Origin: Thermoanaerobacterium sp. RBIITD
GTDB taxonomy: Bacteria; Bacillota; Thermoanaerobacteria; Thermoanaerobacterales; Thermoanaerobacteraceae
Assembly: GCF_900205865.1 (NCBI RefSeq)
Contig: NZ_LT906662.1
Span: 2,927,411 to 2,991,410, forward strand
DNA: 64,000 bases
Reading direction: 5' to 3'
Of the stretch, positions 7,020 to 47,175 are shown piece by piece. Numbering within the stretch: the first letter of the stretch is position 1; every line of letters starts with the position of its first letter. The position numbers were made by a program, and so were the translations under genes. The notes below the pieces were generated by a model. It saw only the letters and a list, made by a program, of their open reading frames with translations, did not search any database and was not told the origin of the DNA.

Positions 7020-8765
7020 ATGGATAAGGTGCGATTAACGATAGATGGAATACCTGTTGAAGTTCCTTCTAACTATACAGTTTTGCAAGCTGCCAAAATG
7101 GCAAATATTGATATACCAACACTTTGTTATTTGGAAGGAATAAATGAAATTGGTGCATGTCGTGTATGTATTGTCGAAATAAAAGGCGTTAAAAATTTAC
7201 AAGCATCATGTGTATATCCTGTAAGTAATGGAATGGAGGTTTTTACGAATACACCGCGTGTAAGAGAAGCAAGGCGTGCGAACGTTGAGCTCATTCTATC
7301 TGCACATGATAGAAGCTGTCTTACATGTGAAAGAAATAGAAACTGTGAATTACAAGCTCTAAGCGAAAAACTCGGTATTAATGAAATTAGATTTACTGGT
7401 GAAAATATAAAATATCCAAAGGATGATTTATCACCATCAATAGTTAGAGACCCAAATAAATGTATTCTGTGCAGAAGATGTGTTTCTACATGTTCAAATG
7501 TTCAAAATGTATTTGCAATAGGAATGGTTAATAGAGGATTTAAAACTATAGTTGCACCGGTGTTTGGCAGAAGCTTAAATGAATCACCTTGTATAAGCTG
7601 CGGTCAATGTATTGAAGTATGTCCGGTTGGTGCTATATATGAAAAAGATCATATTAACAGAGTTTATGATGCACTATATGATGGCAAAAAATACGTCGTA
7701 GTACAAACAGCTCCTGCTGTGAGGGTTGCGCTTGGTGAAGAATTTGGTTTACCATATGGAACAATAGTAACGGGAAAGATGGTTTCAGCATTAAAAAGAT
7801 TAGGATTTGACAGCGTTTTTGATACTGATTTTGCCGCAGACCTAACTATAATGGAGGAAGGCAACGAATTACTCCAAAGGATTAATAATGGTGGTAAACT
7901 TCCGATGATTACATCATGCAGCCCAGGTTGGATAAATTATTGTGAGAGATATTATCCAGAATTTATAGAAAATCTTTCTACGTGTAAATCGCCACATATG
8001 ATGATGGGTGCTCTAATAAAAAGTTATTTTGCTGAAAAGAAAGGTCTTAATCCAAAAGATATATATGTAGTATCGGTTATGCCGTGTACGGCGAAAAAAT
8101 ATGAGATAGATAGACCCGAAATGGAATCGGATGGTATTAAGGATGTTGATGCAGTTCTGACGACAAGAGAATTGGCACGCATGATTAAACAGTCCGGGAT
8201 TGAATTCAATAAACTGCCAGATGAGGATTTCGACAATCCGCTTGGGGAATCAACAGGTGCGGCCGTAATATTTGGTGCAACGGGTGGTGTTATGGAGGCA
8301 GCGCTTAGGACTGTTGCAGATGTAGTAGAAGGGCGCGATTTAGAAAATATTGATTTTAGTGAAGTAAGAGGATTTGAAGGGATTAGAGAAGCATCCATAA
8401 AGATTGGTGGAAAAGATATTAAAGTTGCAATAGCTAATGGTACAGGGAATGCAAAAAAACTCTTAGATAAAGTAAAAAACGGCGAAGCCGAATATCATTT
8501 TATTGAAGTTATGGGTTGCCCAGGTGGATGCATTATGGGTGGTGGTCAACCGATACACAATCCTAATAAAAATCATGAAGTTAGGATTGCGAGAGCAAAA
8601 GCTATATATGAGGCTGATCGGAACTTACCCATAAGGAAATCCCATAAAAACCCGATGATAATAAAGATTTATGAAGAATATCTTAGCACACCACTGAGTG
8701 AAAAATCCCACCATCTCCTCCATACAAGCTATTCTAAAAAAGAATTATATCCTTTAAGTAAATAG
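7020..8765 (+). CDS. hydA: [FeFe]-hydrogenase catalytic subunit HydA
   Basis: A 581-residue group A hydrogenase. The N-terminus holds a plant-type [2Fe-2S] domain (CRVCIVEI region), a His/Cys [4Fe-4S] site (HDRSCLTCERNRNCEL) and two [4Fe-4S] sites (CILCRRCVSTC, CISCGQCIEVCPVGA). The H-cluster motifs follow: L1 reads TSCSPGW, L2 MPCTAKKYE and L3 MGCPGGCIMGGGQP. L1 differs from the textbook TSCCPGW at the second Cys. The C-terminal tail of about 60 residues follows the small-subunit-like region. It is the last gene of the operon and is closed by a hairpin terminator. It should make H2 from NADH, with or without ferredoxin, as a route to dispose of reductant in fermentation. Confidence 0.95.
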   Translation: MDKVRLTIDGIPVEVPSNYTVLQAAKMANIDIPTLCYLEGINEIGACRVCIVEIKGVKNLQASCVYPVSNGMEVFTNTPRVREARRANVELILSAHDRSCLTCERNRNCELQALSEKLGINEIRFTGENIKYPKDDLSPSIVRDPNKCILCRRCVSTCSNVQNVFAIGMVNRGFKTIVAPVFGRSLNESPCISCGQCIEVCPVGAIYEKDHINRVYDALYDGKKYVVVQTAPAVRVALGEEFGLPYGTIVTGKMVSALKRLGFDSVFDTDFAADLTIMEEGNELLQRINNGGKLPMITSCSPGWINYCERYYPEFIENLSTCKSPHMMMGALIKSYFAEKKGLNPKDIYVVSVMPCTAKKYEIDRPEMESDGIKDVDAVLTTRELARMIKQSGIEFNKLPDEDFDNPLGESTGAAVIFGATGGVMEAALRTVADVVEGRDLENIDFSEVRGFEGIREASIKIGGKDIKVAIANGTGNAKKLLDKVKNGEAEYHFIEVMGCPGGCIMGGGQPIHNPNKNHEVRIARAKAIYEADRNLPIRKSHKNPMIIKIYEEYLSTPLSEKSHHLLHTSYSKKELYPLSK

Positions 8766-29805: not shown

Positions 29806-29834
29806 TTGCAATACTAAGACAAAAATGGTATAAT
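29806..29834 (+). promoter_or_regulatory. Promoter of the riboswitch operon
   Basis: TTGCAA at 29806-29811, a 17-bp spacer and TATAAT at 29829-29834. Transcription should start near 29841, just before the riboswitch aptamer. Confidence 0.8.
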
Positions 29835-29850
29835 TTATATAACTTAATAT

Positions 29851-29975
29851 GATGCTAAACGCTTAATTCATAAGAAGCGGGGGACCCAGTTAAAGGGGTG
29901 AATCCATATTGCATGGAAGGGTTATCTTTCGATCCTAACCCGTCAGCTAACCTCGTAAGCGTTGAAAGAGGAGGA
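29851..29975 (+). ncRNA. ydaO/yuaA-type cyclic di-AMP riboswitch
   Basis: The outer stem pairs AACGCTTA (29858-29865) with TAAGCGTT (29956-29963). Inside are the conserved blocks AGCGGGGGACCCAGTT, GGGGTGAATCC, AAGGGTTATC with CCTAACCCGTCAGCTAACCT, and the 3' part CTCGTAAGCGTTGAAAGAGG, all as in the ydaO motif. Known members bind c-di-AMP and usually switch genes off when it is abundant. Ends are approximate. The usual targets are potassium transport, wall hydrolases and osmolyte genes, so control of an opine-dehydrogenase operon is unusual. Confidence 0.9.
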
Positions 29976-29981
29976 GATAGC

Positions 29982-30014
29982 ATGGATATATTCGGTTATA
30001 AGTCCTTCTACTAG
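29982..30014 (+). CDS. Possible 10-residue leader peptide in the riboswitch tail
   Basis: GAGGAGG ends the aptamer and is followed 6 nt later by ATG 29982 and an open frame MDIFGYKSFY ending in TAG. The last four codons fall in the sequence that can pair with the ribosome site of the next gene (30004-30012 with 30065-30073). If translated, ribosomes would keep that site open. It may also be chance, because the purine-rich block is a conserved part of the riboswitch. Confidence 0.35.
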   Translation: MDIFGYKSFY

Positions 30015-30025
30015 TAACCGTGTTC

Positions 30026-30054
30026 AGGCTGTAGATTTTCTCTATAGCTTTTTT
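30026..30054 (+). terminator. Expression-platform terminator of the riboswitch
   Basis: AGGCTGTAGA (30026-30035) pairs with TCTATAGCTT (30041-30050) around a 5-nt loop, and a T-run to 30054 follows. An outer stem (CCTTCTACT 30004-30012 with AGTAGAAGG 30065-30073, and GTAAC 30014-30018 with GTTAC 30055-30059) encloses it and covers the next gene's ribosome site. Confidence 0.75.
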
Positions 30055-30085
30055 GTTACCCAAAAGTAGAAGGAGGTCGTGTACA

Positions 30086-31186
30086 ATGAAGTTACCATCT
30101 TTTGCAGTAATTGGAGCTGGAAATGGCGGTCAGGCAATGGCGGCACATCTTTCTTTGATGGGATTTTCAGTCAATCTTTATAATAGGACGTATGAAAAAC
30201 TTATTCAAATATTAAATAATGGTGGTATATATCTTGAGGGCCCAACAAATGGTTTTGGTGAAATAAACAAAATTACTGATGATATCGAAGAAGCAATAAG
30301 CAATGTAGATATTATAATGGTAACTATTCCGGCATCAGGACATTCTGATATAGCATATGAAATGTTACCATATCTAAAAAGTGGTCAAATAATAGTTTTA
30401 AATCCTGGAAGAACATTCGGAGCAATTGAATTTTACAATATTATTATTAAGAGAAATGATATCGATGTTACAATATCAGAAACAGATACATTTATTTATG
30501 CATGTAGGTCAAATAATGGTGTTGCTAAGATTTACAGAATAAAAGATGTCGTATCATTAGCTGCAATACCTTCGTGGAGAACAAATTATGTTGTTAATCT
30601 TTTGAATTTAGCATATACACAAATCATTCCGGCTGAAAATGTTTTAGTTACAAGCTTAAATAATATAGGTTCGATATTTCATCCAACACCAACTCTTTTA
30701 AATTCTGCGCGAATAGAGACAACAGATGGAAATTTTCAATATTATTTAGAAGGTATATCACCATCTGTAGCAAAAATACTAGAAAGAATAGATAAAGAAA
30801 GAATAGCAGTTGCACATGCACTTGGTGTAAATGCCGTTACAGCATTAGACTGGCTAAAAGAAACTTATGGTTCACATGGGGATAATCTATATGAGGCAAT
30901 ACAAGATACTGATGCATATAGAGGCTTGTCAGCACCAAAGACACTTGAGTGCAGATACATTTTTGAAGATGTTCCGATGAGCCTTGTACCAATTTCATCT
31001 ATAGGAAAACAGTTGGGGATTCCTACACATACAATTGACTCAGTAATCCATCTAGCATCTTGCATGCACGAAAAGAACTACTGGAAAATTGGCAGAACAG
31101 CTCAAAAACTTGGGCTTGAAGGTAAAAGTGCTGATGAGATTAGAAATATTGCATGTGGTGTAAAGGAGGAGATTACGGTCGCATGA
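30086..31186 (+). CDS. NAD/NADP octopine/nopaline (opine) dehydrogenase family protein
   Basis: A 366-residue enzyme from ATG 30086 (AGAAGGAGGTC upstream). The N-terminal Rossmann domain opens FAVIGAGNGGQAMAAHLSLM and continues with VDIIMVTIPASGHSDIAYEM. The C-terminal helical domain shows the opine-family His in NNIGSIFHPTPTLLNSARI, followed by KERIAVAHALGVNAVTALDW and YRGLSAPKTLECRYIFEDVP. Opine dehydrogenases join an amino acid and a 2-oxo acid by reductive amination. Substrates cannot be named. It is the first gene behind the c-di-AMP riboswitch and overlaps the B12-protein gene by 4 nt, so both should be made together. Confidence 0.88.
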   Translation: MKLPSFAVIGAGNGGQAMAAHLSLMGFSVNLYNRTYEKLIQILNNGGIYLEGPTNGFGEINKITDDIEEAISNVDIIMVTIPASGHSDIAYEMLPYLKSGQIIVLNPGRTFGAIEFYNIIIKRNDIDVTISETDTFIYACRSNNGVAKIYRIKDVVSLAAIPSWRTNYVVNLLNLAYTQIIPAENVLVTSLNNIGSIFHPTPTLLNSARIETTDGNFQYYLEGISPSVAKILERIDKERIAVAHALGVNAVTALDWLKETYGSHGDNLYEAIQDTDAYRGLSAPKTLECRYIFEDVPMSLVPISSIGKQLGIPTHTIDSVIHLASCMHEKNYWKIGRTAQKLGLEGKSADEIRNIACGVKEEITVA

Positions 31187-32835
31187 AAAAATTAATTATT
31201 GCAGCATCATTAGAAAATGATGTACATGTAGCTGGTGTTTTTAATTTTTTAAGATTAGCAGAAAAGGAAGGGTATGCTACTCAATTTTTAGGTCCCGCAA
31301 CTTCGATTGATAATCTTATAAATAATGTAATAAATAAGAAACCGGATATTGTTGGTGTAAGCTACAGATTAACATCAGATTCACTTAAAAATATTTTAAA
31401 GACTTTAAAAAGTAAAATAGATTATTATGATCTTAACAAAATAAGATGGATTTTTGGTGGTACAGAGCCTAACGCAATAGTTGCGAAAGAGTCAGGAATT
31501 TTTGAAGCTATATTTGACGGTACAAATGGTGATGAGTATACAATATCATATTTGAAAGGTAATAAAATTACCATTGGTGAAGAAATGTATGAACAGGATA
31601 TAATAAGCAGGATAAATGAAAGTTATCCATACCCTGTAATAAGACACCATTTTGGACTACCTTCATTTGAAGATACACTTAAAGGAATTAAAAAAATAGC
31701 AGAGGAGAAAATACTGGATGTAATTTCACTTGCACCGGATCAAAACACTCAAGAGCATTTCTTTGATAAAAAATACAATAAATCTCTTGATGGTGCAGGT
31801 GGTGTTCCTTTAAGGACTGAAGAAGATTTTAGAAGACTTTATGAGGCATCAAGGTGCGGCAACTATCCATTATTGAGATGCTATAGCGGTACAAATGACA
31901 TTTTTAAAATGGCGAAAATGCTTAAAAACACTATTCATAATGCATGGGCTGCAATTCCATTATGTTGGTATAATATATTAGATGGGAGGGGTCCAAGACA
32001 GGTAGAAGAGGCAATAGCAGAAAATCAAAAACTGATGAAGTGGCATGCAGATCAAAATATACCTGTTGAAGTAAATGAAGCACATCATTGGAGCTTAAGG
32101 GATGCTCATGACGCTATATGTGTTGCTGCAAGTTACTTAGCTGCATATAATGCTAAAAAAATGGGTGTTAAAAATTATATAGCTCAATTTATGTTTAATG
32201 TTCCACCATCTATTTCACCAAAAATGGATCTTGCAAAAATGTTAGCATCTATAGAGATGATTGAAAGCCTTGAAGATAAAAATTTTAAAGTTATAAGACA
32301 GGCAAGGGCTGGCCTTGCCAGTATGCCGCAGGACCTTTATGAAGCTAAAGGGCAGCTTGCATCGAGTGCGTATCTATCAATGGCAATTAAACCGCACATT
32401 TATCATGTTGTAGGTTTTTGTGAAGCACATCATGCGGCAACACCAGATGATATTATAGAAAGCGTAAAAATTGTAAAAGCTGTAATAAAAAATACACTTT
32501 CGGGTATGGTAGATTTCACAAAAGATAGTGATATAATAATACGCAAAAATGTGCTTATTAATGATGCAAATATTATACTAAAAGGTATTAAAGATTTAAA
32601 TGAATATTGCAATGACCCATTATCAGATCCACACTCACTATCGATAGCTATAAAAACGGGGATATTAGATGCTCCACATCTTAAAGGGAATAAGAGCGCA
32701 AGAGGAGCACTACAAACTAAAGTGGTAAATGGAGCATGTTATGCATATGATTACGAAAATGATAGAATTATATCTGAAGAAGAAAGAGTTTCAAAAATCC
32801 TTGATGAATATCAAAAATTAATTGTTGTAGCATAA
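31183..32835 (+). CDS. Cobalamin-binding mutase-like protein of unknown substrate
   Basis: A 550-residue protein from ATG 31183 (AAAGGAGGAG upstream). The first 120 residues form a B12-binding domain with the base-off/His-on signature DVHVAG (DxHxxG) at residue 13, VGVSYRLTSD and WIFGGTEPN. The remaining 430 residues look like the TIM-barrel subunit of glutamate mutase type enzymes, with SRCGNYPLLRCYSGTNDIF, PVEVNEAHHWSLRDAHDAI, YIAQFMFNVPPSISPKMDLA and KPHIYHVVGFCEAHHAATP. Both parts are fused, unlike glutamate mutase with its two subunits. The reaction is unknown; a carbon-skeleton or amino-group migration is plausible. Partnering with an opine dehydrogenase suggests action on an amino-acid-like compound. 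Confidence 0.78.
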   Translation: MKKLIIAASLENDVHVAGVFNFLRLAEKEGYATQFLGPATSIDNLINNVINKKPDIVGVSYRLTSDSLKNILKTLKSKIDYYDLNKIRWIFGGTEPNAIVAKESGIFEAIFDGTNGDEYTISYLKGNKITIGEEMYEQDIISRINESYPYPVIRHHFGLPSFEDTLKGIKKIAEEKILDVISLAPDQNTQEHFFDKKYNKSLDGAGGVPLRTEEDFRRLYEASRCGNYPLLRCYSGTNDIFKMAKMLKNTIHNAWAAIPLCWYNILDGRGPRQVEEAIAENQKLMKWHADQNIPVEVNEAHHWSLRDAHDAICVAASYLAAYNAKKMGVKNYIAQFMFNVPPSISPKMDLAKMLASIEMIESLEDKNFKVIRQARAGLASMPQDLYEAKGQLASSAYLSMAIKPHIYHVVGFCEAHHAATPDDIIESVKIVKAVIKNTLSGMVDFTKDSDIIIRKNVLINDANIILKGIKDLNEYCNDPLSDPHSLSIAIKTGILDAPHLKGNKSARGALQTKVVNGACYAYDYENDRIISEEERVSKILDEYQKLIVVA

Positions 32836-32845
32836 GACAAAGGGA

Positions 32846-32869
32846 AACGCTTATATAAGCGTTCTTTTT
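32846..32869 (+). terminator. Terminator of the riboswitch operon
   Basis: The 18-bp palindrome AACGCTTATATAAGCGTT (32846-32863) is followed by C and five T residues. The arms repeat the outer-stem sequence of the upstream aptamer (AACGCTTA/TAAGCGTT), which may be coincidence. Confidence 0.85.
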
Positions 32870-32959
32870 AATTTTATATAAGATTGTTATTTCTGAAATA
32901 ATGTATTATTATTCTATTGATAGGTACTAAAATAATTAAAGTAAGAGGCGGTGTATATC

Positions 32960-34096
32960 TTGAGTATTGTATCTATAGAAAGATGCAGGACATATAGTAG
33001 CACTGAGGTAAAATCAGCGATTAATAAATGTATTAATAATCTTGGAGGCATTGATAAGTATGTGAAAAAAAGTGATAAAGTATTTTTAAAAGCAAATTTG
33101 CTTAAAAAAAATAAACCCGATGATGCTGTAACGACACATCCTGCTATAGTTGAGGCAGTTGCAAACATTGTAAAAGATATTGGTGCTATACCGATAATAG
33201 GTGACAGTCCATCAGGCCCTTTTAGTGAAAGGGCATTAAAGGGAATTTATGAGTCAACTGGCATGGAAGAGGTTTCAAAGCGAACAGGTGCAGAACTGAA
33301 TTTTATAACGGATGAGCTATCAGTAAAGATACCTGGTGGAAAAGTAATAAAACAAGCGACAATAATGAAAGCAATAATGGATTGTGATTTAATTATTTCA
33401 ATTCCTAAATTAAAGACACACGGTATGACAGTATACACAGGAGCTGTTAAAAATCAGTTCGGAGTAATACCTGGTCTTGTTAAAGCTGGATACCATTTAA
33501 CCATGTCAAACATTAAAGACTTCGCAGATATGCTTATCGACCTTAATAATTTTTTGAGGCCTGTTTTAACCTTTATGGATGCTGTCGTTGGTATGGAAGG
33601 TAATGGACCATCCGCCGGAAAGCCAAAAGATATTGGCCTAATTATTGCATCAAATGATGTATTTTCACTTGATACAGTTGCAACATCAATAATAGGATTA
33701 AAGCCAGAGGATGTGCCTACTGTTTTTATGGCACAAAAAAGAGGATATGGTAAATTAGAAGATATCGATATTAAGGGTCTTAGCATTAACGATGCTAAAG
33801 TAAGTGATTTTGACATACCAACACTGAGAGGTTTTAGCGTTACAGAAAAAATTCCACCATTTTTATCGAAATACATAGATAAATATGTAAAACCATATCC
33901 AGAATTTAATCATGAAATATGTAAAAGCTGCGGTATATGTGTATCGAGTTGCCCACCAAAAGCTCTAAAAATGATTAATAGAAAACCGTTGGTTGATTTA
34001 AAAACATGTATAAGATGCTTTTGCTGTCAAGAATTATGCCCACATAAAGCAGTAAAAATAAAAAGACCTTACTTATCAAAATTTTTATATAGATAA
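32960..34096 (+). CDS. DUF362 domain protein with two [4Fe-4S] clusters
   Basis: 378 residues from TTG 32960 with AGAGGCGG upstream. The N-terminal 290 residues are a DUF362 domain (SDKVFLKANLLKKNKPDDAV, PIIGDSPSGPFSERALKG, DCDLIISIPKLKTHGMTVYT, GAVKNQFGVIPGLVKAGYH). The C-terminus has two ferredoxin-type motifs, CKSCGICVSSCP and CIRCFCCQELCP. The family is common in anaerobes and presumed to be redox active, but no reaction is established. A terminator before and after shows it is a separate unit from the riboswitch operon. Confidence 0.88.
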   Translation: MSIVSIERCRTYSSTEVKSAINKCINNLGGIDKYVKKSDKVFLKANLLKKNKPDDAVTTHPAIVEAVANIVKDIGAIPIIGDSPSGPFSERALKGIYESTGMEEVSKRTGAELNFITDELSVKIPGGKVIKQATIMKAIMDCDLIISIPKLKTHGMTVYTGAVKNQFGVIPGLVKAGYHLTMSNIKDFADMLIDLNNFLRPVLTFMDAVVGMEGNGPSAGKPKDIGLIIASNDVFSLDTVATSIIGLKPEDVPTVFMAQKRGYGKLEDIDIKGLSINDAKVSDFDIPTLRGFSVTEKIPPFLSKYIDKYVKPYPEFNHEICKSCGICVSSCPPKALKMINRKPLVDLKTCIRCFCCQELCPHKAVKIKRPYLSKFLYR

Positions 34097-36155: not shown

Positions 36156-37190
36156 ATGGTAGATAGAGTGAGATTAACACAAATGTCATGCAGTTCCGGC
36201 TGAGCTGCCAAATTAAGCCCTGAGGCGTTGGCACAGGTTCTGTGTCAATTTGATATACCTAATGATAAAAATTTGTTGGTTGGTTTAAATACAAACGATG
36301 ACGCAGCCGTCTATAAGATAGATGGAAATAATGCAATTATTAATACGGTTGATTACTTTACGCCTATAGTAGACGAGCCTTACGATTATGGCCAGATTGC
36401 GGCTGCAAATGCCTTAAGTGATGTTTATGCAATGGGTGGAAAACCATTGTTAGCACTAAATATAGTTTGCTTCCCAACACAATATCTTGACATGTTAAAG
36501 GAGATATTAAGAGGCGGAAATGATAAAGTTAAAGAAGCAGGAGTATTTATAGCTGGTGGTCATACCATACAAGATAATGAACCGAAATATGGACTATCTG
36601 TAACAGGGTTAATAAAACCGAATATGGTTATCAAGAACTGCAATGCAAAACCAGGAGACATTCTTATACTTACAAAACCTATTGGCACTGGTGTAATAAG
36701 TACAGCGCTAAAACGTGATAAATGCCCTGAAGATGTATTAAAAAATGCCGTAGATGTTATGAAGTATCTAAATAAAGATGCATCATCAATAATGATGCAA
36801 ATTGGTGTTAATGCATGTACAGATATAACAGGTTTTAGTCTTTTGGGCCATGCTTATGAAATGGCACATTATAGTAAAGTAAGTATAGAATTTGATGTAA
36901 GCAAAATATCATTTATAGAAGGTGCAAAAGAGCTTGCATCAATGGAATTTATACCAGGTGGGACATATAGAAATAAAAACTATTTAAAAAAGTATATAAG
37001 GATAGACAACGTTGCTGAAACAATAGAAAACTTGTTATTTGACCCACAGACATCCGGAGGACTTTTGATATCGGTTAGCGAGGATAAGGCAAATACACTA
37101 TATGAGGTGCTTAATAGTGGTACAAGATTTAAATGTAGTATAGTAGGAAGAGTTATTGATAGAGGAGAATTTGATATTTATGTAAAATAG
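36156..37190 (+). CDS. selD: Selenide, water dikinase SelD, itself a selenoprotein
   Basis: The frame from ATG 36156 (GAAGGTGAT upstream) has an in-frame TGA at 36201-36203, codon 16, in the context SCSSG-U-AAKLSP, where other SelD proteins have Cys or Sec. Reading UGA as selenocysteine gives 344 residues; gene callers that stop at UGA would start at 36228 and lose the catalytic N-terminus. The kinase body has LNTNDDAAVYKIDGN, AANALSDVYAMGGKPL and FDPQTSGGLL-type parts (here LLFDPQTSGGLLISV). SelD makes selenophosphate from selenide and ATP for tRNA-Sec and other uses. selA and selB follow. Confidence 0.95.
36201..36236 (+). promoter_or_regulatory. Probable bacterial SECIS hairpin in selD
   Basis: Just 3' of the UGA, CTGCCAA (36205-36211) can pair with TTGGCA and AG (36228-36236, one bulge), and inside it GCC (36217-36219) pairs with GGC (36224-36226) around a CTGA loop. 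Position and size fit the SelB-binding element of bacteria, which lies within the coding region after UGA. Confidence 0.6.
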
Positions 37191-47079: not shown

Positions 47080-47175
47080 TGGCGGGAGTATGTGGGAATC
47101 GAACCCACCCCTCGCCTTTTTAGACGAGAAGCTGGTTTTGAAGACCAGTAGGCACACCAGCACCTATCTACTCCC
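47080..47175 (-). tRNA. selC: tRNA-Sec (UCA anticodon)
   Basis: On the minus strand the RNA begins GGGAGTAGATAGGTG and ends TACTCCCGCCA. The 96-nt length with encoded CCA, the anticodon loop CTTCAAA (anticodon TCA) in CTGGT/ACCAG, the long variable arm CTCGTCT/AGGCGAG and the T arm GTGGG-TTCGATT-CCCAC are the features of tRNA-Sec. It decodes UGA with SelB. It lies about 6.6 kb from the end of selB, a separate locus. Confidence 0.96.

Follow-up and report, generated by a model that had tools for sequence, protein, structure and literature searches.

A c-di-AMP riboswitch-controlled operon joining an opine dehydrogenase to a B12-binding mutase-like protein, with a proposed role in ionic stress

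We analysed a window of 64,000 nucleotides (nt) from Thermoanaerobacterium sp. RBIITD (NZ_LT906662.1; coordinates are counted in the window), in which a cyclic di-adenosine monophosphate (c-di-AMP) riboswitch precedes the genes for an opine dehydrogenase (ODH) and a fused B12-binding/triosephosphate isomerase (TIM)-barrel protein of the mutase class. With a probability of roughly 0.6, the sequences point to a biosynthetic operon of two genes, turned off by c-di-AMP, that would make an opine-type compatible solute or another ionic-stress metabolite. The regulation and the enzyme classes are well supported; we infer the OFF direction of the switch, the substrates, the order of the steps and the role as a solute. 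Computation shows the aptamer, a conserved terminator and antiterminator, the enzyme families, and a conserved association of the two genes with one another and with ion-signal RNAs. An original prediction for this locus had described an aptamer, an ODH gene, a B12 gene overlapping it by 4 nt and a terminator, and all four were located. The riboswitch, both enzyme classes and the link to ionic or osmotic stress that it proposed gained support from the data below, and its remark on a neighbouring PAS regulator proved weak.

The aptamer matches the Rfam covariance model RF00379 over its full length (positions 1–134 of 134, E 1.3e-22), scoring 100.3 bits where the gathering score is 38 bits, a strong match that bears out the ydaO-type assignment. 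The aptamer is followed, ahead of ODH, by an intrinsic terminator that the original prediction did not include and that is likely the expression platform. The tail of the aptamer can pair with the left half and loop of this terminator, and the resulting antiterminator is predicted in transcripts that end ahead of the complete terminator. Across 14 genomes of two genera, 97.1% of the cells in the terminator stem are paired, compared with 24–57% when the stem is slid; for the antiterminator the values are 98.4% and 35–64%. Covariation in the two structures is weak because their columns hardly vary, and conservation therefore carries the argument. With both pairings predicted and both conserved in the 14 genomes, the platform is predicted to be able to switch between terminator and antiterminator. 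A terminator/antiterminator arrangement in another c-di-AMP riboswitch has been described as an OFF switch (PMC9337991), and by analogy the riboswitch of the window would act in the same direction.

A second layer of control may operate at translation. Within the genus, a stem of −26.5 kcal/mol is predicted to enclose the terminator and to cover the ODH ribosome-binding site, and comparing the window with the other members of the genus shows one C–G to T–A change that affects both arms of the stem. Directly behind the aptamer, and likewise absent from the original prediction, is a possible leader open reading frame (ORF) of 10–11 codons with a good ribosome-binding site. Eight genomes of the genus conserve its pattern M(D/N)xFG..FY*, and one 3-nt insertion among them preserves the frame. 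Its last codons lie in the 5′ arm of the stem, which pairs with the ODH ribosome-binding site. The stem and the leader ORF are putative elements of added translational control.

The operon riboswitch is one of five c-di-AMP riboswitches in the genome. The other four, whose targets were named by reading the sequences, stand ahead of TrkA/TrkH-like K+ uptake genes in one case and wall-hydrolase genes in three. Genes of both kinds are usual targets of c-di-AMP.

The ODH belongs to the family of octopine dehydrogenase and N-(1-D-carboxyethyl)-L-norvaline dehydrogenase (CENDH). It matches PF02317 in Pfam (E 9.9e-51), with NAD-binding matches at residues 6–104, the Rossmann domain, and it aligns with CENDH (1bg6) over nearly the full length (E 1.3e-86). 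Its His199, Arg290 and Asp295 align with His202, Arg292 and Asp297 of 1bg6, which we take to be the catalytic residues, and are kept in 69–70 of 70 relatives. This supports an enzyme that couples amino acids reductively with 2-oxo acids. The genome of L197 encodes a genuine glutamate mutase E, and no fused B12 protein was found in it; it nevertheless carries, at L197:6317-7420, a close ODH (54% identity) divergent from an NAD-synthase-like gene.

For the B12 protein, the only part named by Pfam is PF02310 at residues 5–108, above the cut-off, and no NCBIfam family matched. The B12-binding domain spans residues 1 to ~128 and the TIM barrel ~135–540. In a search with an AlphaFold2 model (predicted local distance difference test score, pLDDT, 92.6), the top solved fold was glutamate mutase E (Z 32.7, superposed at 2.8 Å over 371 residues, with 16% identity in the barrel), followed by lysine 5,6- and ornithine 4,5-aminomutase (Z 27–31) and then methylmalonyl-CoA mutase, with Z scores of 20–33 overall. 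In the DxHxxG-type B12 motif, His15 and Gly18 are invariant in 58 of 58 sequences, and the first position is Cys in 49 and Asp in 8. By fold and cofactor motif the protein is in the mutase class, but it falls outside the glutamate mutase family; TIGR01503 (glutamate mutase E) has no match anywhere in the window genome. Arginines 154, 232, 269, 306 and 375 of the barrel region are invariant in the 58 sequences, and because of this a substrate with several carboxylates is suggested. Glutamate mutase binds its substrate through an arginine claw and a glutamate. Arg232 aligns with one claw arginine, and the remaining positions shift between alignments, an ambiguous mapping that was not used as evidence.

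The two genes are linked well beyond the window. A single window protein used as query gave zero matches against genome contigs, and an alignment query succeeded, returning at least 567 relatives, from which 80 named loci were used for the counts per locus. In the first 23 regions from relatives, ODH accompanies the B12 gene in every case and adjoins it in all except one (L051). ODH was found in 73 of the 80 named loci; six of the seven loci lacking it start at a contig edge, and in the seventh (L071) the DNA ends shortly past the B12 gene. The pair is adjacent in 71 of the 74 loci with usable flanks. L121 has a divergent ODH with MutL in between, and in L139 three genes separate ODH from the B12 gene. 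MutL was ruled out as an obligate partner, with no full-length copy in the genus of the window. The hosts include Thermoanaerobacterium, Thermoanaerobacter, Caldanaerobacter, Halanaerobiales, Lutispora, Sedimentibacter and metagenome-assembled genomes (MAGs) of several bacterial candidate phyla, together with archaeal MAGs of Thorarchaeota, Lokiarchaeota and Bathyarchaeota; some of the MAG assignments may be incorrect. In a sample drawn evenly from the phylum, the mutase occurs in 86 of 398 genomes and a related ODH in 112, so ODH relatives exist without the mutase.

That most hosts are anaerobic, and that the nearest folds are glutamate mutase and aminomutases, would suit a catabolic pair or a redox sink, in which ODH would run oxidatively on opines or serve to dispose of NADH, with the mutase channelling the amino acid into fermentation. 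Glutamate mutase and aminomutases do serve amino-acid fermentation. However, the pair was not found within a known catabolic cluster, its conserved neighbours include ATP-consuming ligases but neither uptake systems nor ammonia-lyases or acyl-CoA enzymes, and control by c-di-AMP and nhaA-I RNAs is atypical of catabolism. We consider this explanation unlikely.

The regulatory context recurs in other genomes. A c-di-AMP riboswitch lies upstream of the operon on the same strand in 26 of the 80 named loci and, in the phylum sample, in 39 of the 86 mutase-positive genomes (29/71 + 10/15, one of the 29 scoring under the Rfam cut-off). Since related genomes are not independent, no probability is attached to these counts; the cases come from many families and agree in their direction. 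In five further genomes (G302, G336, G346, G377 and G386) such a riboswitch stands ahead of an ODH that is not beside the mutase gene. L206 has one c-di-AMP riboswitch ahead of ODH–B12 and a second ahead of an AsnB-like gene. The genome of L114 (Candidatus Desantisbacteria) has just two nhaA-I riboswitches, and both stand at this locus, one ahead of ODH–B12–CBS–Na+/H+ exchanger and the other ahead of an AsnB-like gene; the nhaA-I class senses Li+, and rare variants Na+ (PMC9646797). At the level of sequence, then, osmotic or ion-signal control of the operon is found in many lineages, in the form of c-di-AMP and nhaA-I RNAs. Among 47 loci that had no c-di-AMP match with our home-made model, archaea included, Rfam placed a riboswitch ahead of ODH only in L114 and in L078, a Bacillota MAG. 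No Na+-I riboswitch (RF03071) was found in 45 genomes carrying the gene, and no c-di-AMP aptamer near unlinked AsnB-like or ATP-grasp genes in seven regions of relatives. Tandem c-di-AMP aptamers were observed 5′ of the operon in two genomes of one order (L049:10883-11251 and L050:10549-10938).

A third enzyme joins the pair in 32 of the 80 loci: a Ddl-like ATP-grasp enzyme in 19, an AsnB-like one in 13, and never both. In several AsnB-like partners the N-terminal cysteine is missing, along with part of the glutaminase domain; other loci keep the cysteine. Elsewhere there is an ATP-grasp enzyme resembling PylC and L-amino-acid ligases, or an NAD-synthase-like or D-glutamate-cyclase-like gene; in L105, an NAD-synthase-like gene sits between the B12 gene and the ATP-grasp gene. 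The shared theme of these enzymes is ATP-driven formation of an amide or lactam. The resemblance of the frequent third enzyme to D-Ala-D-Ala ligase, and the wall-hydrolase genes behind three of the five riboswitches of the window genome, could indicate that the operon makes a building block of the cell envelope. Such a role is improbable, given that the pair also occurs in archaeal MAGs, where peptidoglycan is not expected, that no mur genes are conserved next to it, and that in one lineage it stands with a Na+/H+ exchanger and with riboswitches of the Li+/Na+ type.

We favour a biosynthetic route to an ionic-stress metabolite and propose a plausible mechanism for it. At high c-di-AMP, the bound aptamer would keep its own 3′ tail, and the terminator would halt transcription. 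At low c-di-AMP, as under low K+ or osmotic stress, the aptamer tail would pair with the left half of the terminator, and the operon would be transcribed. The dehydrogenase would then reductively couple an amino acid and a 2-oxo acid to yield an N-carboxyalkyl amino acid (an opine), and the fused mutase, with adenosylcobalamin, would rearrange either this opine or the amino acid from which it is made. An ATP-dependent enzyme may next form an amide or lactam in many other lineages. The product would serve as a compatible solute or a different ionic-stress metabolite.

Several observations weigh against this scheme. No close homologue of the ATP-grasp or AsnB-like partner was found in the window genome, where the pathway would therefore end earlier or use another enzyme. 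In some lineages the AsnB-like partners are near ordinary asparagine synthetase. Full-length MutL is missing from the window genome. About half of the genomes bearing the pair have no recognised riboswitch, among them all the archaea, and in L078 the RNA directly 5′ of ODH is a fluoride riboswitch (RF01734, 50.3 bits, 8685-8746). This fluoride riboswitch, at a single locus, would also fit a product secreted as a metallophore or signal, and some opine dehydrogenases do make metallophores of the staphylopine type. Yet no exporter is conserved adjoining the pair, and the regulation indicates ions and osmotic state, which leaves a secreted product very improbable.

The features of the locus are collected in Table 1. 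The promoter, called strong in the original prediction, is present as a promoter-like site, and eight other members of the genus show its elements again 5′ of their aptamers, but its consensus match alone is about at chance level (20 found, 17.2 expected). The best start of ODH is the ATG at 30086, which is preceded by AGGAGG; the mechanical ORF starts at a TTG at 30053. The 4-nt overlap (ATGA) is made of the ODH stop TGA at 31184-31186 and the B12 start ATG at 31183-31185. A YheO-like PAS regulator, suggested earlier as a possible sensor of a related amino acid, stands upstream of the operon in the window and at six loci of Thermoanaerobacter/Caldanaerobacter. It has no match, however, in the DNA covered around the operon in eight other genomes of the genus and was rejected as a component of the system. 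Directly 3′ of the operon terminator, 32951-34096 encodes a DUF362 plus ferredoxin-type protein, which has no match in the stretches of relatives' DNA that were compared around the operon. Further on, selD (36159-37190) contains an in-frame TGA read as selenocysteine (SCSSGUAAK) and is followed by selA- and selB-like genes; a tRNA-Sec gene lies at 47084-47175 on the strand opposite to selD.

Table 1. Features of the riboswitch-controlled operon, in window coordinates
Feature	Position	Strand	Basis or detail
Promoter-like site	29806-29834	+	TTGCAA, 17 nt, TATAAT, with TG ahead of TATAAT; 10/12 consensus matches
c-di-AMP (ydaO) riboswitch aptamer	29850-29975	+	RF00379, 100.3 bits
Predicted antiterminator	29967-30043	+	Aptamer tail 29967-29981 pairs with 30028-30043
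Possible leader ORF MDIFGYKSFY*	29982-30014	+	Motif kept in eight genomes
Stem predicted to cover the ODH ribosome-binding site	30003-30074	+	30003-30012 with 30065-30074; terminator enclosed
Intrinsic terminator of the riboswitch	30026-30050	+	Stem pairs in 97.1% of cells (14 genomes)
ODH, CENDH/octopine dehydrogenase family, 366 residues	30086-31186	+	PF02317, 1bg6
Fused B12-binding/TIM-barrel mutase-like protein, 550 residues	31183-32835	+	PF02310, AlphaFold2, fold match
Intrinsic operon-end terminator, T tail	32846-32863	+	

We found no paper on the ODH–B12 pair in the open-access library searched, although it may be listed in the two main ydaO gene-association papers. More tentatively, and at slightly less than even odds, the pair may mark a widespread, undescribed class of B12-dependent compatible solutes, opines or their amides/lactams. 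Many anaerobic bacteria and some archaea would make them with an ODH, a mutase of a new family and an amide-forming enzyme that differs between lineages, under the control of RNAs sensing c-di-AMP, Li+/Na+ and perhaps fluoride. If true, this would add a new branch to the c-di-AMP regulon, assign a function for the first time to a B12 mutase family of bacteria and archaea that has no name, and point to a solute that anaerobes make under salt stress. Thermoanaerobacterium is genetically tractable, and there the pair stands alone behind one riboswitch.

The ODH resembles CENDH in its full-length homology and its His/Arg/Asp equivalents; unlike CENDH, it sits in a conserved operon with a B12 mutase. 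The B12 protein shares with glutamate mutase (GlmS/GlmE, 1cb7, 6h9e) a DxHxxG-type B12 domain and a TIM barrel of the same fold, whereas its family is one fused chain with the B12 domain first and usually Cys for Asp in the motif. The second-nearest folds, lysine 5,6- and ornithine 4,5-aminomutases, themselves bind pyridoxal phosphate, and their B12 domain is C-terminal or a separate chain. The AsnB-like partners that lack the cysteine and part of the glutaminase domain recall beta-lactam synthetase and CarA (1jgt, 1q15). Lactam-forming synthetases likewise lack these parts, and the substrates of beta-lactam synthetase and CarA are N-carboxyalkyl amino acids or similar; in sequence, the AsnB-like partner is nearer AsnB (1ct9, E 2e-52) than 1jgt or 1q15 (~1e-15). 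The closest regulatory parallel is in Dehalobacter, where a c-di-AMP (and Na+) riboswitch controls a lysine 2,3-aminomutase for N-epsilon-acetyl-beta-lysine (PMC9337991). In both systems a c-di-AMP riboswitch with a terminator stands ahead of a radical mutase, which in Dehalobacter is linked to osmolyte synthesis; the Dehalobacter enzyme is a radical S-adenosylmethionine mutase, whereas that of the window is B12-dependent by family and coupled to an opine dehydrogenase.

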